Part shown: positions 6,473 to 21,263 of the stretch, in pieces
Layout of the letters: every line of letters begins with the position of its first letter
Numbering within the stretch: position 1 is the stretch's first letter
Virus record (IMG/VR): IMGVR_UViG_3300027777_000168
Coordinates: 1-22,397 of that record
From: a virus
Direction: 5' to 3' (one strand)
DNA length: 22,397 nucleotides
The notes under the pieces: generated by a model
What the model was told of the DNA's origin: nothing
The model's input: only the letters and a program-made list of their open reading frames with translations
Database searches by the model: none
Program-made: the position numbers and the translations under genes

Positions 6473-7630
6473 ATGCCTGTGTATGAGACTATTGCAGCCG
6501 TTGGAGCAACAACAATTATTGGAGGATTAACAGTAGGAGGTCTTGCTGCTGGTGCAGCAACAGCGGGTGCTGGAGCATTAGCGTCTTATGGTGTTAGTAA
6601 ATTGATGAGTGGAGGAAGTGGTGGTGGGGGTGGTGGTGGTGGGGGTGGAATGCCAGCATATAATAATTCTGGAGCAGACCCTTATGTAAGTAGGCAGCAA
6701 CAATCTGCTGCAGCACTTCAGCCTTATGCTCAACAGCTTTACAATCAAGGTCAGGATATGTATGCAAGCAATCTTGCTTATGGTCAACAGGCTCAAAAGT
6801 ATGTTCCAACAGCAGAGGATTATACAGCAACGCAATCAAATATCTTTAACACTGCTGCAAATCAAGGCATAGACTTTGCTAGAAGGGGAACGCAAGCAAA
6901 CATTGCAAATCAAGAAGCTGTAACACCTGGGTCTACCGCACAAAGGCAATTGGCTAATCAGCAGCTTAATTCATACATCCAAGGTCAGGTTCCTCAAGAT
7001 GTACAGCAGCAGATTAATCGAACAGTAGCACAGAATCTTGGTGGAGGATTTAATCTATTTTCTGGAGGTGGACAAGCTCCTCAAAACTTTGCTCGCAACA
7101 TTGGGCAAACAAGTGTTGGTCTTTCTCAATACGGATTGAGTGCCGCATCTACTTGGCAGCAGCTTGCAAACCAAATGGTAGTTTCTCCTACCGCTGGATT
7201 ATCTGCTGGTCTGGAAGCGCAAGGTTTAGCCCAATCTCAAGTTGGACAAAGAGCAGGACTTGGGTTGCAAGCAACGGGTCTTGGGTTAAGTGCAAATCAC
7301 CAAGCTATTAACGATGCTATTTCCTCATTCAGCCCATTGGCTACAACGGCTCAAATGAATATTGGTGCAGCTCAATATGGAGGAAATATGGCAGCAAATA
7401 ATGCTGAAAATATTTACCAATCACAAGCTAACCAATATGGCGCAAATATGGCACAGCAACAAAACCAACAGGCCCTTGGACTTGGTGTTGCTAAAATGGG
7501 ATTAGGAGCATATGATGCTTACAATAAAGCTAACTATTACAATAATCTTAGTGGAGGATTACCTTCATTTATGGGAACGCAAGCTGGCGCAAATGCAGCT
7601 CTTGGATTTACTCCAACAATGGCAAAATAA
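6473..7630 (+). CDS. Ejection-type internal virion protein (Gly/Ala/Gln-rich)
   Basis: 385 residues from the ATG at 6473 (MPVYETIAAVGATT). An in-frame ATG at 6422 would add 17 residues and overlap the cupin gene by 13 bases; I prefer 6473 because its attataagATG context matches the others and the product then begins just before its hydrophobic segment. Residues ~7-43 are a long Gly/Ala/Thr/Ile stretch (IIGGLTVGGLAAGAATAGAG) that could insert in a membrane, followed by a run of about ten glycines. The rest is Gln/Ala/Asn-rich and probably helical (QQQSAAALQPYAQQLYNQGQ, QNQQALGLGVAKMGLGAYDA). Hydrophobic N-terminus, helical Gln-rich body and position before two further large genes match podoviral ejection proteins (T7 gp14 role). 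The assignment is inference. Confidence 0.55.
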   Translation: MPVYETIAAVGATTIIGGLTVGGLAAGAATAGAGALASYGVSKLMSGGSGGGGGGGGGGMPAYNNSGADPYVSRQQQSAAALQPYAQQLYNQGQDMYASNLAYGQQAQKYVPTAEDYTATQSNIFNTAANQGIDFARRGTQANIANQEAVTPGSTAQRQLANQQLNSYIQGQVPQDVQQQINRTVAQNLGGGFNLFSGGGQAPQNFARNIGQTSVGLSQYGLSAASTWQQLANQMVVSPTAGLSAGLEAQGLAQSQVGQRAGLGLQATGLGLSANHQAINDAISSFSPLATTAQMNIGAAQYGGNMAANNAENIYQSQANQYGANMAQQQNQQALGLGVAKMGLGAYDAYNKANYYNNLSGGLPSFMGTQAGANAALGFTPTMAK

Positions 7631-7642
7631 TCACAGAATAAT

Positions 7643-8761
7643 ATGTCTATAGGATACTACAATTTTGGTAATGTGATGGCTGGCAACCAGCAAGTTGTCA
7701 ATTCTATGGCGGGACTTGGAGAGCAAATCTCTGGAGCTATTGAGAACCATGCTCAGACACAAGCTGCACAAGCCATGCTTCCTGCTCTCCAGCAAAGCTA
7801 TCAGCAAGGTATGCAAAAGATTGCCAATGGTGATCCTAATGGAATGTCAGACATCTACAGTGCAGCTTCTTCGGCATCACAGATTCCCATGCTTCAGTCT
7901 TTTGCTCAAAACGCCATTACAACTGGACAATCTGCAAATATCCATGCACAAGGAGCCGCTAAGACTCAAGCATATTTACAAGGACAGCAAATGTCCAGCA
8001 TGGTAGCGCATCCAGAAATGTATAATTCTGATGGTACACTTAATACTAGCAAATTGGGTCAACCTGCTTCTGCAAAACCATTGACTCCTTATCAACAAGA
8101 ACAGGTAGAAAAAACTGCATCTAGCAATAAGATTTCTCAAGTAAATCTGTATAATTCTCTTTATTCTGGAAATGGAAAAGATGAAGTTGGAATAGCTGGA
8201 TATGCCGATAAGATTAACAAGGGGATTAAAGAAGGCGTTAATGTTGCTCCAGAAGATTTGCAGAATTTCGCAAAAAGATATAGTTATTATAAACAGACCC
8301 AAGCTGGATATGGAAAGAATGCAATTCCAAATGAAGATATAGAGAAAGCATATGATGAAGTTAAAAATCATCTTGTTACTGCACAAGGTGACTTAGAATC
8401 AAAAATTCAAGCAGCAAAAAAGAAAGGCGAAGATCCGTCTAAAATTCCTAATCCAGAAAGGCATTGGTATAACGCTATATGGACTGATTCCTCAAATGAC
8501 TTAACTGCTCAAAATTCAAAATTAAAAGAAACTATTTCCAATTTTGATAAGATTAACAATATTGGGAAAAAAGAAAGTGCTGGAGGACTTCCTTCCGCTA
8601 AATCCCAACCAGTTGCAGATCAACAACAAAGTCAAGATTCTCAAATGCAACAAGGTAATGCTACCTTTAATTCTCCCAATGATGTAAAATCAGCTTTCCA
8701 AGCTGGGAAAATTAGTCAAGATCAAGCGGTTCAATTGTTACAACAATTCCCAAATAAATGA
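7643..8761 (+). CDS. Ejection-type internal virion protein (Gln/Ala-rich helical)
   Basis: 372 residues. The first ~110 are helical, Gln/Ala/Met-rich (GNQQVVNSMAGLGEQISGAI, QTQAAQAMLPALQQSYQQGM); the middle is charged and helical with YADKINKGIKEGVN and SKIQAAKKKGEDPSKIPNPE; the end is Gln-rich (QQQSQDSQMQQGN) and closes with NDVKSAFQAGKISQDQAVQLLQQ. That last motif resembles the short EDALAFLG-type motifs at the start of the next protein in being a small amphipathic helix with an acidic or polar cap. The TGA stop overlaps the ATG of the giant gene (ATGA, 8758-8761), indicating translational coupling. Position and composition suggest the role of T7 gp15. I recognise no catalytic motif. Confidence 0.55.
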   Translation: MSIGYYNFGNVMAGNQQVVNSMAGLGEQISGAIENHAQTQAAQAMLPALQQSYQQGMQKIANGDPNGMSDIYSAASSASQIPMLQSFAQNAITTGQSANIHAQGAAKTQAYLQGQQMSSMVAHPEMYNSDGTLNTSKLGQPASAKPLTPYQQEQVEKTASSNKISQVNLYNSLYSGNGKDEVGIAGYADKINKGIKEGVNVAPEDLQNFAKRYSYYKQTQAGYGKNAIPNEDIEKAYDEVKNHLVTAQGDLESKIQAAKKKGEDPSKIPNPERHWYNAIWTDSSNDLTAQNSKLKETISNFDKINNIGKKESAGGLPSAKSQPVADQQQSQDSQMQQGNATFNSPNDVKSAFQAGKISQDQAVQLLQQFPNK

Positions 8762-9111
8762 ACCAAGATGAAGCACTTGCATTTCTAAATCCAACTCAAG
8801 GGAATCAGTTGGACACACCGATCCAACAAGAGTCAATGTCTCCAGATGAGAAGGGGACGCAATTAGCTCCACAGCTTAGTTCCACTGGAATGAGCCAAGA
8901 AGATGCTTTGGCTTTTCTTGGTGTTAATCAACAGCAGCAGAAAGCTCCTATTCCAGATTCATCTTATCTTAATTCTCAGATTCCTGCGGCTCAACTGCCA
9001 GCGTCAGATCCAAATAATCTGACCTCTAATTACACTCAATCAGTTCCCCAGCCAACGCCTCAAGCATCACAAGGAATGAGCAAGGAGGATGCATTGGCGT
9101 TCCTTGGGGCA
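8758..9111 (+). repeat. Three EDALAFLG peptide motifs at the N-terminus of the giant protein
   Basis: MNQDEALAFLN (from 8758), MSQEDALAFLG (from 8890) and MSKEDALAFLG (from 9076) share an M-S/N-x-(D/E)-(D/E)-A-L-A-F-L core, at residues 1, 45 and 107. The linkers are Gln/Pro/Ser-rich and probably disordered. They look like short amphipathic docking helices, perhaps for a partner in the virion. Confidence 0.8.
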
Positions 9112-12100
9112 AGTCCTAGCCCTACTCCAGAGCAATCTGGAAAGACTATTAATCTGCCAGCAACCTCAATACAACAACAGACTCAAGGCGTTGAACCAAC
9201 AGAGTCAGCAAAGCGTCCTGTAGGGTTCCTAGAGGCCGCTGGAAGAGGATTAATTGGCGGTCTTGCCAAGACCAATGAACTTATGGCTAAAGGGGTTGGT
9301 ATTTTCCCTTATGTTGAAGATAAGACACTTCAAGCATTTGGGATAGATAGTAATATTTACAACCGCTACATGAGAGCAGTCCACGCCACGGGGCTTGGGC
9401 AACCTGGAGTTGAAGCAGAAGCCATTAAGCCTACTGAAGAACTGACTACTGGTGGAAAGATTGGTCTTGGACTTGGTGAAATGGGATCACAACTCCCATA
9501 CATGGCAATGTCTGGGGGAGTTGGTGCAGAAGAAGCCGCCGCGCAAAATGCATTCCAAGTTGTCAAGCCTTTGATGCCGAGGATTACGGAAAGCATCCAA
9601 GCAATGCTTCCTATGGCGGCTCAAGCTGGTGCTGATGCCGTAGAACAATCTGCTCAACAAGGAGATAATCCTATTGTTCAAACTGCTAAAGGAATAGCAC
9701 AAGCTACTGCTACTGCCGCAATTGGCGTTGTACCACTTTCTGCTAGAAGCAAAATTGTTAATCCTTTAGGAAGGTTATTGGAACAGGGTGCATATGGATA
9801 TATTACTGGTCTTCCAATTGGGGAACAGCAAAAGGTTGTTGATTCATGGGTGAATGGTAAACCTTATGTTCCTAGTGAATGGAAGGATATGGCTATACAA
9901 GCTATTCCAATGGCCTTTATGACAGGAGCATTTGGTGTATTACACGCTCCAAAGGCTCAAGCAAAGATAGATGCCGCATCTGGTGGCCCAGAAACTACGC
10001 TTACTCCATCTAAAAACCCTGTAGTCAATGAGCGTGAGGCGAAGATTAACGCAATGGCTGATGCCCAAGCAACTGTTCCAGAGGCCCCAAATCCTATTAA
10101 GATTACCCCTGAGCCTACGGCTAAACCTCCTGCTGCTGATTTGCGTAGTTTGATAGCTGATCAAGCAATGCACGATGAAGGATCTCCAGAGTATGAGGCT
10201 ATACAAGCACAGATTGATGCCCTTAATAAACCCGCTGAAGTAAAAGCATCACCAAAAAGAACAGAAGATGCATTGGCTTCCAAATGGTCAGAAATGCAAT
10301 CTTATCCAGAAGGAAGTCCAGAGCGAGAAAAGGCTTTTCAAGAATACATAGATATTTCTAGTGGAAAAACCAAACCCGCTGAAGCTACTGCTGAAGCACA
10401 ACCTACACAACCAAATGCCATTCAAGAGCCAAGCGCAACGGAAGCTATGCTACGCCCTCAAATCACAGGGCAAGGCGAAGTCGTGGAATTGCCAAGAGTG
10501 GGAGAAGGGAACGCCAAAGTCCCTGCCCAAGAAACTAAAGCCCAAGAAGTAGCTCCTAAATACTCTACAGAAGTTCAAGCTAAACTTGATGAGATTGATG
10601 CAAATGTAAAACTTTCAAAAATCATTTGGAAAAGACAATTAGATGCTGGTCAACTTACTAACTCAGAATACCAAAGTCGCTCAAAGGGATTAGGAATGCG
10701 AACAGCGGCTGAAAAGCGTCAAATTACTGGAGAGCTTACTGCTAAAGAACAAGCCGCAAAAGATAAGCGTGAAGAATCTAACTACAAAGGAAAGCCTGTT
10801 TCTGTTGATGGTCGCAATGGTACAATCATCGGCAATCCTTTTGGTCGAGTAAAGGTAAGGTTCTCTGATGGAACTGAATCCACCCATCTTCCAGAAAAGA
10901 TTCAAGCTCCTGTTGAAGTTAAAGCTCCTATTGAAGTTAAAGCTCCTGTTGAAGTTAAAGCCCAAGAAATAGCCCCAACTGAGCCAGCAAAACCAGAAGA
11001 AGTAACCCTAACCGAAAAGGAACAGGCAGATAAGGCATTACTAGATAAGATTGACGCTGAAGCAGGAAACCCCAAAGCACCAAAACCAAAAGCCAAGGAA
11101 GTCAATCCATATTCAGATATTCTGTACCGATATGAGAACGGCGAAGAAAATGCAATTACAAGTCCTAGCGATTTAGTAAAAGAGGTTGAGAAAATAGCCA
11201 AAAGGCAAAGGAATCAAAACCTTAAAGATGCTATAACAAGATACAGGGATGCTACCGATCTTGGTGCTGATGTTGAACCAGAAGTTGAACGATTGCTTAA
11301 TGAAGTGAAGCGTGAAGCTGATCGTTATAAATCTCCTTTATCAGAAAAAGCTAAAAGAATAAAGACAGCAAAAGATAAGGCTGTAGAAGTATTTGGTGAT
11401 GCTGCTAATAATTTGAATTATGTTCTTGAGAATAAGATTCTTGATCCTGCTCAATATAGAAAGCGTGTAAAAGCTGGTCTTATGAAAAAAGGCGGGGAAT
11501 ATGATTTCTTTGACAAAGCAAAACTCCCAAAGAAAGTTCGTGACCTTATTTTTTCAAGGGATGGAAGTCCTATTGATGAAGTGGCAGGAATTATGCGTAA
11601 AACTCCATATGAACTACTGGAGGCTATTCAAGAAGCATATATTGCTAAAGAAAAACTAGATAAAGATAATTTAGCAAAAGAAAAATACGAAGAGGAAAAA
11701 GTAAAAAATGCTCTAAAGATGGAGCAATTAAAAAGAACAAATCCCGAAGAATACGATAGAATAGTTGAAGAGGATGCCCGTAACTTCCTTAATTCAAAAC
11801 TTAAGCGTGAAGGTGGATCTATTGAAGAGTTGCCAGAAATTGTAAAATGGGCTGATAAGACTATTAAAGAAGGTCGAAAAAGGTTAAATATAGGTTTAGA
11901 TCCAGAGTTACTTTTTGCTTATGCTGTAAAATCTGCACACTTTTTGGGAGTGAGAACAAATGATTTTGCAAGATGGTCAAAACAAATGGTGAAAAAATTT
12001 GGAGAACAAATTCAACCACACCTTGAAAACATTTGGGGAAGAGTTCGTCAACACGCATCAGGTGAATACAATCTTATTGATGATCCATTTTGGGAAAAGA

Positions 12101-15100
12101 ATTCTGGAACACCAAAGAAAGGAGAAGAAGCATATACGCCTAGCAAAATTGCATGGAGTGATGCGGCAAGAGATATGCTTGGCGTTAATATTCATCCTTC
12201 TGAATTGCCTTCTCTTGATGATGTAAACAATATTTCCAAATGGCCTGAGTCGTTAAGGGATTTAGCAACAGTCAATGATGTAAGTTACAAACTAAACCAA
12301 GCAACTGATGTAGCTGGAAATGAAGTTTTAGACATTGTAACAACCCCAATGGAAGAGGAGGGCGGGACTCTTACTGAAAGGTTGGGCGACTTTGGTGGTG
12401 CATCATTTAGAAACAGATTGCGTAAAGACATTCAAAAAAGAAATGATGCAATTGAAAGAATAAAGGAAAAGACAAAAGGCCTTTATACGGATGAAGAAAT
12501 TCTTGAAAGGGCATCTGAATTACCTAATGCAGGAAGAATTTATGCAGAAGATATATTCGCAAGGTCAAAAGAAGGCAGATCCAGACTTGAAAATTGGGCT
12601 GATAAAACCATTAAAGAATCCAAGAAGCGTTTAAATGTTGGACTAGATCCAGAGGTTCTTTCTGCCTATGCCGTCAAAGGTGCTTTCAAAATTGCCCGTG
12701 GAGTTCGTGACTTTAGTGAATGGTCAAAGCAAATGGTACAAGACTTTGGAGAAGCTATTCGTCCACACCTCGAAGACCTTTGGAGCCAAGCAAAACAGAT
12801 TCATTCAGAACGAGAGAAATACGCCTCTAAACCCCTTACGGATAAGGAGGCTTTTGCCAAAAAGGTTGCTGATGCTTTTACCAAAGGGAAGATGGAGCCT
12901 GTTACTGAAGAGGAGCTTGGAAATGTGCTGGCTAAGAAGTTTCCTAACATTACACCAAGTGAGATTAGTGACCTTCACGCTATGGCTACAGGAAAGGAGA
13001 AGCCTCCTGCTCCTTACGCTGGAGTTTCTGCTGGAGAAGAAGGTCAAGGGGAAACCCCAGAACAAATTTCTATTCGCAAAAAAGATCAGGCTGAACAAGT
13101 TAAGCGAGGAATATTAACAAGTGTAATTGATACAGCACAGGGATTGTCAGATGAAAAATTAATAGAGCGTGGACGGCAAAACTTAGCAAATGGCGTTGAC
13201 CCAAACCAAGCCCTTGAAAAAGCAAGGCAGGGAGATGCTGAATCTTTATCAACAGCAAGGGCGCATTTTGACACTGTTCTAGCTCCAAGGGTGAGTGAAT
13301 TACTTAAAACTAAAGGCCCAAAATCACCAGAATATATTAAAGCTTCAAGAGAGGCTACGGAATATTATCGAGGAATCCGTGAGGGTCTTTCGGTTGCTTC
13401 TGAAGCATTGAGAACAGCAAAGAGGCAAGTTGATCTTACTGATGCATCTTCAATAGCTAGAGAATACACAATTCAAACTGGTGAAGAACCTACTTTATCT
13501 CAACATGACCAAATTCGCAAAGTTGCAGATAAGGTAGATAAAACTATTAAAGAATCAGATAAAGCTAGTGATGATCACAAGGTGGTAATGGATGGAGGGC
13601 TTGCTGAAGTTGATGTTCAAATTCCGACCTCTGTTGAAGAAGGTCGTCAGCAAGTTGCTGACCTTTCTAATGCCCAAGGGAAAAAAGCAAAGGAAGAGAT
13701 TGATCGTCTTAATAACGAGCTAGAACAAACCAAGCGTGATCTTGAGGAAATTAAGCAAGCCAAGGCTACTGGTCAAGATGCTGAATCGCTAAAGGCTTAC
13801 TACGAGGCAAAGCTAAAGGATGTACAGGGTCAACTTGAATCCCAACCAAAGTATGGGAAAGAGGTTTTTGAGCAAGCTAAGAAGATTGTAGATAAGTGGA
13901 AAGCTGATGCCGTTGAAGCAGAAAAACTTTTGCGTAAACAACTTAACCAGATGGGATCTTCCCCAGATCCTACTATCATCCTGACTCTTGCTAGGATTAT
14001 GAGGGCGCATATCGGTGAACTTGCCCTTGATTTTGCCAAATCATCTGCTCGTTTGATTGAAAAGTTTGGCCCGAAGATTGAACCATTCTTAAAAGATGCA
14101 TGGGCTAAGGCTCAAGAACTTATTAAGGGAGAGAATGGAGGAGAGAAAGCTGTTAAATCTGTTAGAAAAGCTGTTCCAAAATCCAAACCAGTTGAGAAGA
14201 TGACTCCTGCTGAAAAAGCTTCCGATAGTCTCCGTAAGCGCATTGCTCAAGCACAAAAGAAGATTGATGATCTCAATAGCGGAAAGATTACAACTCCTAA
14301 AGAAATTGAGAAGGTCACCAATGAAGAAATCCAGCGTCTTGAATCTGAATACAACCAAAAGAAAAAGGAACTTGCTGATGCTCGTTTAAAGTCAAAACAA
14401 AGGGAATTGTTTGAGAAGGGCAAAGTGGGAGACGAATTAAATCCAGAACAAATCAAAACTCTGTGGGAGTCAGCAAAGAGATTCTATTTAGACAAGGGTG
14501 AAAGCGATTACGACAAGATGATTTCTGATCTTGGTAGTGACTTTGGGCTTACACCAGATCAAATTCGCAAAGGATTTGCTACCCCAAAAGGCGCAAAGAA
14601 AGCATCTGATGAGATGTATATTAAGCAACGCAATAGACAAATGGCATTGGATGAGGCAAAGCGTTGGCTGGATAACCAAAAGGCAAGTTGGATTGGAAAA
14701 ATCTTTGGAGCTGTTGCCGAAAAGACATTTAAGTTAGCTATCCTTGGTCATGGTACTGCATTCATTGGAACCCATGCTCCACAAACGCTTTATACCCATT
14801 CAAGACTTGCATTTAAGGCATGGCTAAAAGGGCTTTCTTATAGTTTTACAGGAAAGGATGGAAGAATCCAAAATATTGTTGATAACAAAGATTTGATAAA
14901 TCGACCAAACTGGATTGCAGCCCGAAAGGGTGGGCTTGAGAATGATCCTAGAGAAATTAGAAGGGAAGGGGCAACTCCAGCTAGAAGTGATTCTGTTCTT
15001 GCTAAAGCATTGGATACGATTAGTGGAGGTAGAGGATTTGATGCCTTGTTCCATTTGCGTCAAGATATGTTTGATCAGGCATGGGAGCAGCTAAGTATTA

Positions 15101-16038
15101 CACAAAGGACTCCAGAGATGGCAGAAATGTTTGCCAATAAAATTAACAATGCTACTGGATTTACCAAAGGAGGAAAAACTTCTGCTAGTATTCTTCAAAG
15201 CCCTATTACTAAAGTTCTTTTCTTTGCACCAAAGTTGATTGCAAGTAGATTCAAATGGCTAATCCAAGATCCTGCTCGCATGATTGGTACTTTTGGCAAA
15301 ATGGCTAATCCATTTGTCAAAGTATCTCCAGAAGAAAGGATGAGTGCTGTTTATGAAGCAAAAAACAAAGCAAAGTTCTTGGGTGTTTTAACTGGAACCT
15401 TGCTTGCAAACCAAGCATTGCTATCTGTTACTGGAAGTAATCAAGGCATTAACTTTACCGATCCTAAAAAGAATGATTGGCTTTCTTACAAGGGATTTGG
15501 TTACAACTTTGCTACAGTTGGTGCATTCACTCGTATAGCAAGGCTTTTGGCATCGGAATATAATGCTGTTTTTGGTGATCTTTCTCGCTGGCAAAAAGCA
15601 AAAGGAGGTCGTGAACAAGCAATGAAAGACTCTCTTTATACTTATTTAAGAAGTGGATTAAGCCCGATTACTAGAGATATTATTGTAGCGGCAACTAGAA
15701 AAGATTATGTAGGAAATACAGTTCCTTGGTCTAGCGAACAACCAGATAGAGGTCGGAGGAAGTTGACTTACCGCGAAGTTATTCAAGAACAATTTGCTCC
15801 AATTCCTATTTCTGAAGCTGCAACACAAAAGGAAATACTTCCTGCGGTCGCTAAAGCTGGATCTGCTGCCCTCTTGGGGGCAAGGCTTGAGACTCCTGCT
15901 GATATTGAAGAATACAAGAAGTCATTGGAATCAAGGCAAAGTCCATCATCTTCCAATAATCCATTTGGATTGAAGAGTTCTAGCGCAAAACCATTTGGGT
16001 TAAAAAGTTCAACCGCAAAACCATTTGGGTTAAAGTAA
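8758..16038 (+). CDS. Giant polyvalent ejection protein (2426 residues)
   Basis: The largest gene, about a third of the window. Visible layout: three short EDALAFLG motifs at residues 1, 45 and 107; a Gly/Ala-rich amphipathic region ~155-400; a disordered Pro/Ala/Glu/Lys region with a tripled VKAP unit (~717-734); before it a small SH3-like barrel ~677-715 (GKPVSVDGRNGTIIGNPFGR, then VKVRFSDG); three copies of a ~70-residue domain (1031-1098, 1280-1347, 1714-1790); coiled coils ~1637-1698 and ~1820-1890; a hydrophobic C-terminal domain ~2149-2334 (VLFFAPKLIASRFKWL); and a 30-base tandem repeat at the C-terminus. This resembles the large polyvalent proteins of phages, and the C-terminal domain recalls the family called LPD38. 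Such proteins are thought to enter the cell with the DNA. I see no transglycosylase, methylase, helicase or protease motif. Confidence 0.75.
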   Translation: MNQDEALAFLNPTQGNQLDTPIQQESMSPDEKGTQLAPQLSSTGMSQEDALAFLGVNQQQQKAPIPDSSYLNSQIPAAQLPASDPNNLTSNYTQSVPQPTPQASQGMSKEDALAFLGASPSPTPEQSGKTINLPATSIQQQTQGVEPTESAKRPVGFLEAAGRGLIGGLAKTNELMAKGVGIFPYVEDKTLQAFGIDSNIYNRYMRAVHATGLGQPGVEAEAIKPTEELTTGGKIGLGLGEMGSQLPYMAMSGGVGAEEAAAQNAFQVVKPLMPRITESIQAMLPMAAQAGADAVEQSAQQGDNPIVQTAKGIAQATATAAIGVVPLSARSKIVNPLGRLLEQGAYGYITGLPIGEQQKVVDSWVNGKPYVPSEWKDMAIQAIPMAFMTGAFGVLHAPKAQAKIDAASGGPETTLTPSKNPVVNEREAKINAMADAQATVPEAPNPIKITPEPTAKPPAADLRSLIADQAMHDEGSPEYEAIQAQIDALNKPAEVKASPKRTEDALASKWSEMQSYPEGSPEREKAFQEYIDISSGKTKPAEATAEAQPTQPNAIQEPSATEAMLRPQITGQGEVVELPRVGEGNAKVPAQETKAQEVAPKYSTEVQAKLDEIDANVKLSKIIWKRQLDAGQLTNSEYQSRSKGLGMRTAAEKRQITGELTAKEQAAKDKREESNYKGKPVSVDGRNGTIIGNPFGRVKVRFSDGTESTHLPEKIQAPVEVKAPIEVKAPVEVKAQEIAPTEPAKPEEVTLTEKEQADKALLDKIDAEAGNPKAPKPKAKEVNPYSDILYRYENGEENAITSPSDLVKEVEKIAKRQRNQNLKDAITRYRDATDLGADVEPEVERLLNEVKREADRYKSPLSEKAKRIKTAKDKAVEVFGDAANNLNYVLENKILDPAQYRKRVKAGLMKKGGEYDFFDKAKLPKKVRDLIFSRDGSPIDEVAGIMRKTPYELLEAIQEAYIAKEKLDKDNLAKEKYEEEKVKNALKMEQLKRTNPEEYDRIVEEDARNFLNSKLKREGGSIEELPEIVKWADKTIKEGRKRLNIGLDPELLFAYAVKSAHFLGVRTNDFARWSKQMVKKFGEQIQPHLENIWGRVRQHASGEYNLIDDPFWEKNSGTPKKGEEAYTPSKIAWSDAARDMLGVNIHPSELPSLDDVNNISKWPESLRDLATVNDVSYKLNQATDVAGNEVLDIVTTPMEEEGGTLTERLGDFGGASFRNRLRKDIQKRNDAIERIKEKTKGLYTDEEILERASELPNAGRIYAEDIFARSKEGRSRLENWADKTIKESKKRLNVGLDPEVLSAYAVKGAFKIARGVRDFSEWSKQMVQDFGEAIRPHLEDLWSQAKQIHSEREKYASKPLTDKEAFAKKVADAFTKGKMEPVTEEELGNVLAKKFPNITPSEISDLHAMATGKEKPPAPYAGVSAGEEGQGETPEQISIRKKDQAEQVKRGILTSVIDTAQGLSDEKLIERGRQNLANGVDPNQALEKARQGDAESLSTARAHFDTVLAPRVSELLKTKGPKSPEYIKASREATEYYRGIREGLSVASEALRTAKRQVDLTDASSIAREYTIQTGEEPTLSQHDQIRKVADKVDKTIKESDKASDDHKVVMDGGLAEVDVQIPTSVEEGRQQVADLSNAQGKKAKEEIDRLNNELEQTKRDLEEIKQAKATGQDAESLKAYYEAKLKDVQGQLESQPKYGKEVFEQAKKIVDKWKADAVEAEKLLRKQLNQMGSSPDPTIILTLARIMRAHIGELALDFAKSSARLIEKFGPKIEPFLKDAWAKAQELIKGENGGEKAVKSVRKAVPKSKPVEKMTPAEKASDSLRKRIAQAQKKIDDLNSGKITTPKEIEKVTNEEIQRLESEYNQKKKELADARLKSKQRELFEKGKVGDELNPEQIKTLWESAKRFYLDKGESDYDKMISDLGSDFGLTPDQIRKGFATPKGAKKASDEMYIKQRNRQMALDEAKRWLDNQKASWIGKIFGAVAEKTFKLAILGHGTAFIGTHAPQTLYTHSRLAFKAWLKGLSYSFTGKDGRIQNIVDNKDLINRPNWIAARKGGLENDPREIRREGATPARSDSVLAKALDTISGGRGFDALFHLRQDMFDQAWEQLSITQRTPEMAEMFANKINNATGFTKGGKTSASILQSPITKVLFFAPKLIASRFKWLIQDPARMIGTFGKMANPFVKVSPEERMSAVYEAKNKAKFLGVLTGTLLANQALLSVTGSNQGINFTDPKKNDWLSYKGFGYNFATVGAFTRIARLLASEYNAVFGDLSRWQKAKGGREQAMKDSLYTYLRSGLSPITRDIIVAATRKDYVGNTVPWSSEQPDRGRRKLTYREVIQEQFAPIPISEAATQKEILPAVAKAGSAALLGARLETPADIEEYKKSLESRQSPSSSNNPFGLKSSSAKPFGLKSSTAKPFGLK
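10906..10959 (+). repeat. Three tandem 18-base units (APVEVK)
   Basis: The unit gctcctgttgaagttaaa occurs three times in a row (10906, 10924, 10942); the middle copy has one substitution (Val to Ile codon). It encodes APVEVK, APIEVK, APVEVK inside the Pro/Glu/Lys-rich linker just after the SH3-like segment. It is probably a length-variable spacer produced by slippage. Confidence 0.9.
11848..12050 (+). repeat. Giant protein repeat domain, copy 1
   Basis: Residues 1031-1098: WADKTIKEGRKRLN, GLDPELLFAYAVKSAHFLG, DFARWSKQMVKKFGEQIQPH, LENIWGRVRQ. A helix, a G-x-D-P-E turn, a helix, then a DF-x-x-W-x-x-x-M-x-x-x-FG-x-x-I-x-P-x-L motif. I recall the same motif in very large phage and mobile-element proteins. 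It aligns with copies at 12595 and 13897. Confidence 0.8.
12595..12800 (+). repeat. Giant protein repeat domain, copy 2
   Basis: Residues 1280-1347: WADKTIKESKKRLN, GLDPEVLSAYAVKGAFKIA, DFSEWSKQMVQDFGEAIRPH, LEDLWSQAKQ. It is very close to copy 1 in protein and still visibly similar in DNA (for example gctgataa-ac-attaaaga and tagatccagag), pointing to a fairly recent duplication within the gene. Confidence 0.8.
13897..14129 (+). repeat. Giant protein repeat domain, copy 3 (diverged)
   Basis: Residues 1714-1790: WKADAVEAEKLLRKQLNQMG, SSPDPTIILTLARIMRAHIG, ALDFAKSSARLIEKFGPKIE, PFLKDAWAKAQEL. It keeps the same helix plan and the FG-x-x-I-x-P-(H/F)-L-x-(D/N)-x-W core but has lost the tryptophan after DF. 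It is more divergent than copies 1 and 2, so it is the oldest copy or under different constraint. Confidence 0.65.
15961..16035 (+). repeat. 30-base tandem repeat encoding the C-terminal PFGLK tail
   Basis: The word ccatttgg begins at 15961, 15991 and 16021, an exact 30-base period, and the third unit is cut after 15 bases by the stop codon. It encodes PFGLKSSSAK, PFGLKSSTAK and PFGLK, the very end of the giant protein. Third-base differences between units show that the peptide has been kept while the DNA drifted. Confidence 0.95.
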
Positions 16039-18182: not shown

Positions 18183-18812
18183 TTATCTCTTGGGTTTTTG
18201 AAATACTAAAAAGTAGCTGTGGAATATCCTAGCGTGTTTTTGTTGACCTTTTTGTGGTGAAGGCATCCTGTGCTTTGCCGCTAGTATGAATAAATCAGCA
18301 AGTCTAAATCCTTCATTCTCTGCCATTGCAATCGTATTATAATGAGTGCAATGCATTTTGTGATTGTGAATAATGTCTTGGCATTTGAATACAAAATGGC
18401 CTCCCTTTTTAAGTATTCTCCAAGCCTCGCTAATTGTATCCCTATAATGATCTTCTAATTCATCATAAGACCAATAGCCGCCAAATCTAGCAGTCATGGC
18501 AACCTTTCCTTCTTTGTGATCTCTTCCCCCTTTTACATAAGTTAAGAAGGGTGGATCAAATACAATGCTGTTTAAGCATTCTGATTCGATTGGTAATGCC
18601 CGACTATCTCCTTGAACTGCTTCTGGCTTTTGTGGTTGGACATCATAGCATAGCACGGGTCTTGGTATAGTTTTCCAAAAGGAACCATTTCCATAGGTCA
18701 TGTCACAATCAAAACCCTGCTTGCAATGAAGTTTAAGAATAGCATTTAGAATATCATCTTGTGATTCATAAATACTACGGATAACAGGAGCATCAAATAG
18801 TTCTAAATTCAT
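18183..18812 (-). CDS. DNA methyltransferase (DPPF motif, class I)
   Basis: 209 residues starting MNLELFDAPV. I chose the ATG at 18812, one base after the upstream stop (TAAgATG); an ATG at 18836 lies inside the previous gene. Motif IV is DPPF at 86-89, typical of N6-adenine or N4-cytosine methyltransferases, preceded by an acidic strand and GDSRALP. The SAM-binding motif I region is DMTYGNGSFW (37-46). The later part (SEAWRILKKGGHFVFKCQDI) is the usual strand-helix after motif IV. There is no visible target-recognition domain, and it is short compared with restriction-linked enzymes. No restriction partner is visible. The likely role is protection of phage DNA from host restriction; substrate and site are unknown. 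Confidence 0.82.
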   Translation of the reverse strand: MNLELFDAPVIRSIYESQDDILNAILKLHCKQGFDCDMTYGNGSFWKTIPRPVLCYDVQPQKPEAVQGDSRALPIESECLNSIVFDPPFLTYVKGGRDHKEGKVAMTARFGGYWSYDELEDHYRDTISEAWRILKKGGHFVFKCQDIIHNHKMHCTHYNTIAMAENEGFRLADLFILAAKHRMPSPQKGQQKHARIFHSYFLVFQKPKR

Positions 18813-18813
18813 C

Positions 18814-19026
18814 TTACTCTCCCTCGTTACCTTCATGCTCTTCCATAACGCAATGCGTTATAGGTGAATCCTGCTGTGGCATTACTTGGTTCTGTGGGAA
18901 AACCATGTAGTACTCACCGCACTTGGCTCCATCATTCTCTGATAGGTTTGCCACATAGAATGTCTGTGGTTGGATTGGTGCTGTATGCATAAGCGTCAGC
19001 ATGGTTAGGGCTTGTAATTGGTTCAT
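18814..19026 (-). CDS. Small protein, unknown
   Basis: 70 residues. The ATG (19026-19024) overlaps the TGA of the HNH gene upstream, and its TAA is one base before the methyltransferase start. The N-terminus (MNQLQALTMLTLMH) is mildly hydrophobic, then TFYVANLSENDGAKCGEYYM and an acidic tail with EEHEGNEGE. No metal-binding pattern is evident. I do not recognise the family. The overlap at its start and the narrow gap at its end support a real gene in a coupled operon. Confidence 0.5.
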   Translation of the reverse strand: MNQLQALTMLTLMHTAPIQPQTFYVANLSENDGAKCGEYYMVFPQNQVMPQQDSPITHCVMEEHEGNEGE

Positions 19027-19637
19027 GATTTTTTTCCTTTTCTTATGTTTTCTTCAGCCCATAGGGGTTGAAAATTTGTGTAGTGGTTAATATTTATAAG
19101 CTCTTCTTCTGTGGTTGCTGATGCTACGGGAACAATATGATCGTAATGCCACTCACCATGATTTTCCCATGTCATTCCTTCTTTGAATTGAGATTCAATG
19201 TGGTTTTGGAAATCTTTAAAAGAGCAACCAAGTATTTGATATGTTTTTGTTTTTTTACTATAGCCTCTTTTTTTCAATGACATTGATATAAGGTTTCTAA
19301 TTGAAACACTTAATTTGTATAAAGGGTTATTTGATCTTTTGTTTTTGGAATATTCTTTTGCCCAATTATTTATACATTCTCTATTATTAATTCTCCATTG
19401 TTTTACTTTTGTTAAAACTCTTTCTTTGTTGTTTTCTTTCCATTTACGAGAACTGCATTTTGATTTGTCAGGATTATTTCTTCGCCACACCCTAGCGAAT
19501 TCATTATTTTTATTATGCCGTTTGTAATATTTATCTGGAGTAAGCCATACTTCCCCCGTAGGCGATTGTTTACTGCGAGACCAGTAAATTTTACCGTCCT
19601 CTCTTATGTCTCCCTTTTTATGTTTTTTCTCAATCAT
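19023..19637 (-). CDS. HNH homing endonuclease with basic helix repeats
   Basis: 204 residues. The C-terminal nuclease module is EWHYDHIVPVASATTEEELI, then NHYTNFQPLWAEENIRKGKK: D166-H167, N188 and N197 fit the HNH pattern D-H-I-x-P, N-x-Q-P-L, E-x-N. The middle has repeats of the form R/K-x-W-x-x-N-N-x-E (KWKENNKERV, KQWRINNREC) that probably bind DNA. The gene is very AT-rich: my hand count of 19261-19320 gives 25% GC. Both ends are ATGA stop-start overlaps with the flanking small genes (19634-19637 and 19023-19026), so it sits in the operon without damaging either neighbour. A free-standing mobile gene, not in an intron. Confidence 0.88.
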   Translation of the reverse strand: MIEKKHKKGDIREDGKIYWSRSKQSPTGEVWLTPDKYYKRHNKNNEFARVWRRNNPDKSKCSSRKWKENNKERVLTKVKQWRINNRECINNWAKEYSKNKRSNNPLYKLSVSIRNLISMSLKKRGYSKKTKTYQILGCSFKDFQNHIESQFKEGMTWENHGEWHYDHIVPVASATTEEELININHYTNFQPLWAEENIRKGKKS

Positions 19638-19924
19638 CTTTTATATTTTACACAAACACTCGACATATGAAAGTTGCCTCGCACGATGTCACATTCATAG
19701 GCTCGGAGCATTCCCATTCCTCCAAATCCAGCAGACAGCCTGTGTTTAATAGCTGAATCACATTTAGACTTAGATGTATAAGCTGATTTACCACAAGCGC
19801 ACTTTTTCGGCTTTTCAATAAGTTTTACCAATCCCATTTCTATTGCTTCCTTCCTATTCATTGGTGCTAGGTCTGGAGTATCTAGCCCAATCTCGTTTAG
19901 TATATTATCAATTGATGATCTCAT
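19634..19924 (-). CDS. Small Cys/His protein, probable zinc ribbon
   Basis: 96 residues. The N-terminal ~40 residues look helical (IDNILNEIGLDTPDLAPMNR, IEMGLVKLIEKPKK). A compact Cys/His set follows: C42 and C44 (KKCACGKSAYTSKSKC), C55, then AYECDIVRGNFHMSSVC with C78, H86 and C91. The layout CxC-G-K-x-x-Y, helix, (L)RAYEC, GNFH-(L/M)-(T/S)S is one I recall from small phage zinc-ribbon proteins of unknown role. Both ends use ATGA overlaps, so it is translated with its neighbours. It probably binds nucleic acid or a host protein. Confidence 0.6.
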   Translation of the reverse strand: MRSSIDNILNEIGLDTPDLAPMNRKEAIEMGLVKLIEKPKKCACGKSAYTSKSKCDSAIKHRLSAGFGGMGMLRAYECDIVRGNFHMSSVCVKYKR

Positions 19925-20130
19925 TGGTTTATTTGTTTTTTTAGTTCAGCAAGATCCCTCATGCTGTTTCTGGTGTCTTGAATTGTTTCCCATTCCATTA
20001 CGCCATCTGCTATTGCTATAGCGCGATCACGCTCTGCATTAGAACGATCTAGTTTTTCTTGCATAGTTAACTCTGGTCTAGCGTTCACAATTAAAAAATC
20101 TGCTACGAATTGTTTTATTTCTATGTCCAT
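19921..20130 (-). CDS. Small charged helical protein, unknown
   Basis: 69 residues, rich in Asp, Glu, Arg and Lys with heptad-like spacing (VADFLIVNARPELTMQEKLD, NAERDRAIAIADGVMEWETI), probably an extended helix or coiled coil. No metal or catalytic motif is seen. The start (20130) is eight bases after the replication-like gene's stop, with only A-rich sequence before it (aaacacaaATG). The stop overlaps the next start (ATGA). I do not recognise the family. Confidence 0.5.
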   Translation of the reverse strand: MDIEIKQFVADFLIVNARPELTMQEKLDRSNAERDRAIAIADGVMEWETIQDTRNSMRDLAELKKQINQ

Positions 20131-20138
20131 TTGTGTTT

Positions 20139-20636
20139 TTATTTAGTAATACTATTAAGGTATTCTTGTTGGGTTGATTTAGGCCAAGAGCTAAACGGCA
20201 ATGTATGCCATTGAGGGTGAATTTGAACTGATTCTGGGTATGCTGCTGATCTCCACTCGAATGCTTCTTGTTCATTTACTCCAAGTTTAGAAGTAATGGT
20301 TGGCTTTTCTATTTTTAAAGCTGAATAGTCCATACCATCATCCTCCCATCGTTGTTGGTTCAGCCAAGTGGAAGCGTGAGGTATGAACTTGCCCATCTCC
20401 TTTTGCCAATCTGGTGAGACAATTGCTTTCCGTAAGGCCGCTAGGAGTATATCCAGCTCTGGTAGGTTGTTCTTTGCCCAAGATGCCCTTGCTGCTCCTT
20501 TGCCAATCTTTTTAGGGTAGGCTGACCAGAAGAATTCAAAACCGTCTATAGCGGCTTTCTTGCGCCGTTTAGGGCTATTCTCAAGCTGGACTTCTTGCCC
20601 ACAACAGGGGCATATATCTGGTTCATAACTCTTCAT
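20139..20636 (-). CDS. Replication-organiser-like protein (phage primosome family)
   Basis: 165 residues. The middle carries a block I associate with C-termini of phage replication proteins and DnaT/O-like primosome components: FEFFWSAYPKKIGKGAARAS, W, ALRKAIVSPDWQKEMGKFIP, HASTWLNQQRWEDD. In relatives this FW-x-x-YP-(K/R)-K block and the FIPHAxTWLNQxRW motif follow an origin-binding domain. Here the protein is short and begins with a CPCCG knuckle (C9, C11, C12) in place of a large DNA-binding domain, so it is either a short variant or one part of a split system. The stop is eight bases before the next start. It implies that the leftward cluster includes replication functions. Confidence 0.65.
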   Translation of the reverse strand: MKSYEPDICPCCGQEVQLENSPKRRKKAAIDGFEFFWSAYPKKIGKGAARASWAKNNLPELDILLAALRKAIVSPDWQKEMGKFIPHASTWLNQQRWEDDGMDYSALKIEKPTITSKLGVNEQEAFEWRSAAYPESVQIHPQWHTLPFSSWPKSTQQEYLNSITK

Positions 20637-21133
20637 ATTTTTTTGAAAGTTGACCTATTGTTAGCTTGTTCTTTTGCGGTTGACCATTTGCAATTTAATG
20701 GTTCGTAATTTCCTTCATTATCAATTCGATCTATTGAAAGCCCTTTTTCCCAAGAGCTTCCCATATCAATAAGGAAATTTTCAAATGCTCTCCATCTATC
20801 GCATACTTTTATTCCTCTACCTCCATATCTATGCCATCTATTATTATAAGGATCTACGCACCTTGAAATCATTTTAGCCCAAGAAATATATATTCCTGTC
20901 AATTTCCCTCCAGATGCGTGTCCATGCTTCTTGTTTTTTTCTGATACCTTTTGGTATCTATCGCAACCACATCCCAATATTTTTCCATTTATTAGATGAT
21001 TTGCTCGTATTGTTTTTTCATTTCCGCAATCGCATTTGCATTTCCAATACCTATGCGATCCTTTGGTTGGATTTTTAACTAAACAAATAGCAGTAAGTTT
21101 TCCAAACTTCTGATATGATATATCATTATTCAT
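20633..21133 (-). CDS. HNH/AP2-type homing endonuclease
   Basis: 166 residues from MNNDISYQKFGKLTAICLVK. The frame stays open to 21259, but I start at the ATG at 21133: the domain begins there, and the upstream stretch encodes a different small gene in another frame. First half: a strand-rich segment with KCKCDCG and GCGC (C32, C34, C36, C55, C57), probably a metal knuckle. Second half: HGHASGGKLTGIYISWAKMI, RC, YGGRGIKVCDRWRAFENFLI, DMG, SIDRIDNEGNYEPLNCKWST, QANNR. This is the widespread phage HNH family with an AP2-like core; the D-R, N-C and N-N-R residues are present. The stop overlaps the replication gene start (ATGA), and its start overlaps the mini-gene stop. Confidence 0.85.
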   Translation of the reverse strand: MNNDISYQKFGKLTAICLVKNPTKGSHRYWKCKCDCGNEKTIRANHLINGKILGCGCDRYQKVSEKNKKHGHASGGKLTGIYISWAKMISRCVDPYNNRWHRYGGRGIKVCDRWRAFENFLIDMGSSWEKGLSIDRIDNEGNYEPLNCKWSTAKEQANNRSTFKKI

Positions 21134-21219
21134 AGTTTTATTAATGAAAAACCCCCTGCATATTTCCGTGTGAGATAGCCACAAAACGGGCATCGGGAAT
21201 AGCAGAGGGTCAAATTCAT
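21130..21219 (-). CDS. 29-residue Cys-knuckle mini-protein
   Basis: ATG at 21219-21217, TGA at 21132-21130. The product includes CYSRCPFCGYLTRKY and ends in FSLIKL. Evidence that it is real: its TGA overlaps the start of the HNH gene exactly as ATGA, the junction used at five other places in this leftward block; the ATG has the A-rich context aaaacaaaacaATG seen elsewhere; and CPFCG is a classic zinc-knuckle sequence in small phage proteins. Only three cysteines are present (C6, C10, C13), so metal binding may need a second molecule or a partner. It may instead be the remnant of a longer zinc protein. It lies in a different frame from a weaker 42-codon upstream extension of the HNH gene. Confidence 0.5.
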   Translation of the reverse strand: MNLTLCYSRCPFCGYLTRKYAGGFSLIKL

Positions 21220-21263
21220 TGTTTTGTTTTAGGGATCTCACTCCCATTAAGGTGTTCATAATA

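Follow-up and report, generated by a model that had tools for sequence, protein, structure and literature searches.

To our knowledge, the way in which large proteins are sorted into the heads of phages has been worked out in just a few cases (T4 and P1). DarB of phage P1 needs an N-terminal signal for head entry, of which 30 residues suffice for a reporter (PMC9024508), and the internal proteins of T4 have a capsid-targeting sequence (PMC3012670). The DarB-like giants of the Bcep22/JC1 type that were inspected are 4433–4985 aa long, and the four that were scanned have combinations of SLT, InPase, Eco57I-type methylase, SNF2 helicase, LPD3, LPD38, and LPD39 domains. In CsCl-purified virions of JC1, gp69 is abundant, with 51 unique peptides (PMC9144972). 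Phage-type polyvalent proteins are multi-module giants encoded near structural genes (Iyer et al., 2017; PMC5512222), and the criterion applied here is a single polypeptide with at least two domains recognised as effector or LPD domains.

The window, i.e., the whole stretch of DNA that was analyzed, is a 22,397-base uncultured virus record. It encodes a giant protein with repeats at several scales, including a helical domain (HD), and the features discussed below are as follows.

7643–8761 (+): upstream gene, 372 aa, overlapping the start codon of the giant gene; the C part of its product co-segregates with motif type
8711–8743 (+): ISQDQAVQLLQ, a peptide similar to MSQEDALAFLG, at the C-terminal end of the upstream gene product
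8758–16038 (+): giant protein gene, 2426 aa, an uninterrupted single open frame with full or partial relatives in L003–L007
8767–8790 (+): N-terminal motif copy 1, DEALAFLN, aa 4–11, a degenerate copy
8899–8922 (+): N-terminal motif copy 2, EDALAFLG, aa 48–55, with 5 synonymous and 0 amino-acid changes relative to copy 3 in 8 codons
9085–9108 (+): N-terminal motif copy 3, EDALAFLG, aa 110–117 (motif scan and codon comparison)
10904–10961 (+): tandem APVEVK linker, 18-base unit in 3.2 copies (TRF), with one unit in L006
11845–12066 (+): HD copy 1, aa 1030–1103 (profile search)
12592–12813 (+): HD copy 2, aa 1279–1352, the copy closest to DarB-like proteins
13915–14133 (+): HD copy 3, aa 1720–1792, matched at i-E 1.6e-11 by a profile seeded without it
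14437–15924 (+): conserved C-terminal module, aa 1894–2389, 81–88% identical in five relatives
15961–16035 (+): C-terminal tail with three (N/K)PFGLK units, a 30-base repeat (TRF, period 30, 2.5 copies, score 115)

The frame from which a protein of 2426 residues had been read was confirmed to be uninterrupted. An initial search of other virus contigs yielded five relatives; those inspected have a similar arrangement of neighbouring genes, and three full-length relatives have 2031, 2365, and 2437 aa. The giant gene sits among late virion genes, with tail-fibre-like genes (PHROGs) and a GIY-YIG homing endonuclease gene on its 5' side, and the same block is found in the relatives. On its 3' side are two small genes, a 505-aa gene, and then DNA-metabolism genes in the opposite orientation.

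The three N-terminal EDALAFLG motifs that the sequence-only reading had pointed out are real, with the first one degenerate. The best-three-copy score of the window protein was 72, compared with a mean of 43.9 and a maximum of 57 among 300 shuffles, none of which reached it. Exactly three N-terminal copies were found in the window protein, L003, L005, and L006 (0/300 shuffles each), as well as in G006, L049, L033, and L056; pattern scans of IMG/VR added EDALAFLG-type triplets, also of exactly three copies, in L193, L200, and L204. Every checked relative whose N-terminus is intact has a peptide triplet, and each has its own peptide: GLFDDLL in L003, NPFADLIP in L005, NVYEQF/NVYAQF/NPYAQF in L006, and EDALAFLG in the window. 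The first copy falls within residues 1–4 in all four of these proteins. Like a capsid-targeting sequence, the motif of the giant protein is thus a short peptide at the extreme N-terminus. Within a protein, the copies are near-identical peptides with mainly synonymous codon differences (in L003, 5 synonymous and 0 nonsynonymous of 7 codons) and unrelated flanks. Conservation of the peptide despite scrambled codons and unrelated flanks indicates selection on the peptide itself.

Peptides of this kind extend beyond the near family. NPFDQFD, a peptide of large phage proteins, was chosen for a pattern scan of IMG/VR and was found at at least 120 loci, compared with 7 loci for the reversed control in the same scan. 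Among the matches listed, it lay within 60 aa of the ATG in 79 of the 80 ORFs examined (about 11 would be expected if positions were uniform), none of the 124 exact copies was beyond residue 400, and at least two loose copies were present in 48 of the 80 ORFs examined. NPFADLIP was found in 33 stretches in an IMG/VR pattern scan, and the string NPFDQFD had no occurrence in the open-access literature searched. The giant NPFDQFD proteins L061 and L071 also contain HD, which ties the NPFDQFD class to the window protein. Other tagged proteins are of the entry type, including L003 with its Glucosaminidase domain, proteins in which an NPFDQFD or NPFADLIP tag accompanies a domain resembling FlgJ (L068) or lambda lysozyme (L048), and gene 16 of the cultured phage Pam1. 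The product of this last gene begins with MQNFFDQFD, and the gene is close to one annotated as an injectosome translocase. In the cultured phage Pam5, the product of gene 13 begins with LVPVDxDPFA twice. No tag was found in the product of VSN-002 gene 40, a homologue that occupies the corresponding injectosome position, directly after a P22-type translocase gene. These scans suggest that the thrice-repeated peptide of the window protein is one of a widespread and apparently undescribed family of short tags at the N-termini of phage delivery proteins, and the tag system would reach well beyond the window protein.

The interval between tags 1 and 2 holds different inserts in different relatives. 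In L003, it contains a Glucosaminidase domain (Pfam, above cutoff, E 2.7e-9), and the PDB sequence matches of this insert are murein hydrolases. In L005, a different insert occupies the same slot and matches an uncharacterised PHROG family (8.7e-8), with weak peptidase matches. The L005 insert looks like a double-psi/3D-type domain and may have a cell-wall role, for which searches of Pfam and PDB gave no support. Nothing recognisable was found in this slot in the window protein and L006. These patterns suggest that the enzyme is an optional insert that is absent from the window protein; judging from L003, the lack of an enzyme is a trait of this member only.

The motif types also appear in front of shared sequence. 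Contig G006 (L193; L214–L216), with 55,371 bases, has, at its two ends, different alleles of the same three-gene block that surrounds the giant gene. One end encodes the N-terminal 292 aa of a protein with three EDALAFLG copies, the other a 2263-aa protein with three DPFADLIP copies and an L005-type insert, and the two proteins are near-identical for about 150 residues past the motif region. Since the contig ends share gene order, two strain variants were possibly joined by assembly, and the two alleles may represent either a real duplication or such a joining. Whichever origin the ends have, the comparison of the two alleles indicates that the whole motif set is swapped in front of common sequence. 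On the evidence of these alleles and of the relatives, the three peptides are retained together and exchanged together.

The upstream protein partly follows these exchanges. Its C part tracks motif type, with 44% identity within types and 18% between them, which ranks first among 210 relabelings; no such tracking is seen for its N part (26/210). ISQDQAVQLLQ is found in the upstream protein of all four phages of the EDALAFLG type, and of none of the other types, as part of a near-identical ending, GKISQDQAVQLLQxFPxK, that resembles the motif. Such co-segregation can mean functional matching or just physical linkage in one recombination block.

HD is a domain of about 75 aa, searched with a profile that was seeded with the first two copies of the window protein together with four DarB-like proteins; its E-values refer to a small set with filters off. 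Three copies of a helical domain of about 70 residues had been proposed, and because copy 3 was matched by a profile seeded without it, the triplication is genuine. They are old, however, and unequally related, with 58% identity between copies 1 and 2 and only 23–26% between copy 3 and either of these. The profile found two copies per near relative and one each in JC1 and LASTA, both of which are outside the seed. HD copies split into three groups. The copy in slot 2 of L004 (aa 822–897) groups with window copies 1 and 2 (support 0.85). HD types thus seem to change slots, and the pattern would not be one of simple triplication.

Residues 1290–1351 of the window protein match the DarB-like family PHROG_10089 (E 6.7e-11); this match, over HD2, is the only one that the protein has in PHROGs. 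A tblastn search with HD2 found 38 phage records, with E-values to DarB-like giants in the 2e-9 to 2e-8 range, and one phage-like Parabacteroides plasmid, on which the protein is annotated LPD38. HD is present in JC1 gp69; in JC1 and BcepIL02, it occurs once, about 200–300 aa N-terminal of the methyltransferase. P1 DarB had no convincing HD match (best i-E 0.01). Only F, G, and L are invariant in HD, with no enzyme-like set of conserved polar residues. Structure prediction of the modules, as the sequence-only reading had advised, was informative for HD only: its AF2 model has three helices at a moderate pLDDT of 74.3, and the model of the C-terminal module, from six sequences, was unusable (pLDDT 37.6). 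The HD model had no match in the PDB fold search, and in a viral library its top match was an LPD-annotated protein at a best E of 0.012, which is suggestive only. Taken together, HD is proposed to be a helical adaptor common to DarB-like proteins, one that changes slots as a spacer or adaptor would. A candidate assignment of HD to LPD36 was rejected; its place ahead of the methylase agrees with LPD36, but the GXGU motif described for that family is not apparent, and no profile of LPD36 was matched. On the Parabacteroides distasonis plasmid NZ_OY725834 (L014), the LPD38 protein with HD has 4970 aa, carries two N-terminal copies of a DLGDFSxFE peptide, and is encoded near a terminase gene.

Two further repeats reported earlier were found by TRF as described. 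The linker reads APVEVK/APIEVK/APVEVK in its 18-base tandem, and with one unit in L006, it looks like a linker expansion. The tail repeat reads NPFGLK/KPFGLK/KPFGLK up to the stop codon. The C-terminal module has one hydrophobic helix-like stretch and was not found outside the near family, with an empty genome profile search and only E-values above 4 in a relaxed tblastn search. Identification of this module as LPD38 was rejected, as Pfam gave no match and neither hhalign nor hmmsearch linked it to C-termini that carry LPD38. Matches of the giant protein to DUF1388, HrpF, and Internalin were also discarded as low-complexity or weak.

Compared with the Bcep22/JC1-type giants, the window protein is alike in size class, in its late structural position after fibre genes, and in having HD, the domain by which it resembles the DarB-like family; some members also have an N-terminal murein hydrolase. 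It differs from them in lacking methylase, helicase, LPD3, and LPD38, in its C-terminal module, and in having three HD copies rather than one and three N-terminal tags. The dyad of DNA methylase and SNF2 helicase, present in JC1 and BcepIL02, is absent from it. Searches of Pfam, NCBIfam, PADLOC, and PDB sequences gave no significant match to a catalytic domain, and the enzyme domains of polyvalent proteins, which had been read as missing, are indeed absent (no methylase, no helicase, and no Pfam enzyme match). The polyvalent layout suggested at the outset stands only in part. HD is shared with phage-type polyvalent proteins and links the protein to DarB-like giants with LPD3, LPD38, and LPD39, and the profile search advised for LPD families gave the DarB-like PHROG match. 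However, no LPD family scored above cutoff in Pfam, nor were two or more effector or LPD domains found; with no LPD match of its own, the protein is not polyvalent by the formal definition. By these searches, the window protein is one that shares a single domain with DarB-like virion proteins and lacks the features by which either the DarB-like or the polyvalent proteins are defined.

The P1 DarB signal and the T4 capsid-targeting sequence are, like the tags, short N-terminal peptides, and the P1 and T4 proteins are virion-internal. The tags differ in having three copies and other sequences, and their part in packaging is a predicted one. They have no sequence identity to the P1 or T4 signals, and the resemblance is one of position and behaviour. 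The P22-type injectosome offers a further likeness in the FDQFD start of Pam1 gene 16 next to the translocase gene and in the place of VSN-002 gene 40 directly after one, but apart from the tag type these proteins have no relationship to the giant protein, and VSN-002 has no tag. A murein hydrolase domain is not universal among podovirus ejection proteins, and none was found in the window protein.

The virion delivery guessed by the sequence-only reading is plausible, and we consider it fairly probable that the giant protein is a virion protein loaded at assembly and delivered with the DNA, with the N-terminal triplet serving as docking tags. A loading or docking function is the reading that best accounts for the position, brevity, and multiplicity of the tags and for their occurrence alongside entry enzymes. 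The protein would enter the particle during assembly, its three peptides binding a repeated partner and loading it into the head, much as the first 30 residues of P1 DarB do (an analogy of position and behaviour). Candidate partners are the portal, a scaffold, the head wall, or a protein ejected along with it, for instance the one encoded by the overlapping gene upstream. In some relatives, a murein hydrolase inserted in the slot between tags 1 and 2 would serve passage through the cell wall; HD would act as the shared adaptor, and the strongly conserved C-terminal module may be the constant working part.

The same peptides may instead act after ejection, by binding a membrane or a host protein. 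They bracket murein hydrolases in L003 and L068, yet the strict proximity to the start codon and the multiplicity across many proteins fit known capsid signals better, as does the precedent of P1 DarB and T4, and this alternative seems unlikely. We are similarly doubtful that the giant protein is an injected polyvalent effector in the strict sense, with HD repeats or the C-terminal module acting on host defences. HD is common to DarB-like antirestriction proteins and its top viral fold match is annotated as LPD, but Pfam found no LPD or enzyme domain, the invariant residues of HD do not resemble those of an enzyme, and DarB of P1, which has been tested for antirestriction activity, lacks a convincing HD match. 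The earlier proposal that the repeat domains are the effectors found no support, as HD is spacer- or adaptor-like and the N-terminal repeats are tag-like. Triplet sets, cassette swaps, the N-terminal placement of NPFDQFD, and the P1 DarB signal all point to a tag array rather than an effector.

A tape-measure protein has a near-constant length within a close group, and its gene lies between tube and tip genes. The great length, the helical content, and the hydrolase domain in L003 would suit the tape measure of a long-tailed phage, one that includes a murein hydrolase in some relatives, and the contigs have no other candidate of such size. Nevertheless, the gene follows fibre-like genes, the relatives range from 2031 to 2437 aa despite C-termini that are 81–88% identical, and HD has kin in the podovirus JC1, so that a tape measure is quite improbable. 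Neutral tandem-repeat expansion without function would suit the varying copy number of the APVEVK linker, but hardly N-terminal peptides that are identical despite scrambled codons and unrelated flanks and that are kept in three copies in each intact relative checked; we regard it as very improbable for the repeats.

Loading by docking tags could also be general. Tentatively, many phages may share undescribed N-terminal address tags, usually in several copies and swapped as cassettes, that load entry proteins; the tag type may match a partner encoded by a neighbour, as the co-segregation of the upstream C part with tag type suggests (1/210, against 26/210 for the N part). If true, a compact N-terminal tag in many uncultured phages would make ejected proteins predictable from sequence.

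Several minor observations concern other genes. A search for the P22 portal family, which bears on the podovirus question, found it absent, and in the search for T7 portals no control gave a match. The relative L006 has a probable portal of 848 aa and a probable terminase of 643 aa, located at L022 11080–16437. Neither had a tblastn match at E 0.01 among 50,697 phage records, and L006 apparently represents a phage lineage so far unsampled. In the window, the GIY-YIG homing endonuclease gene amid the tail-fibre-like genes (963–1571, +) has NUMOD3 motifs, and the region 18183–21259 (−) contains genes for an orphan-type DNA methyltransferase, an endonuclease VII-like protein, a replication-initiator-like protein, and an HNH endonuclease. 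Finally, a 402-aa gene contains a short GTGGTGGTGGGGGTG tandem repeat at window positions 6618–6648.
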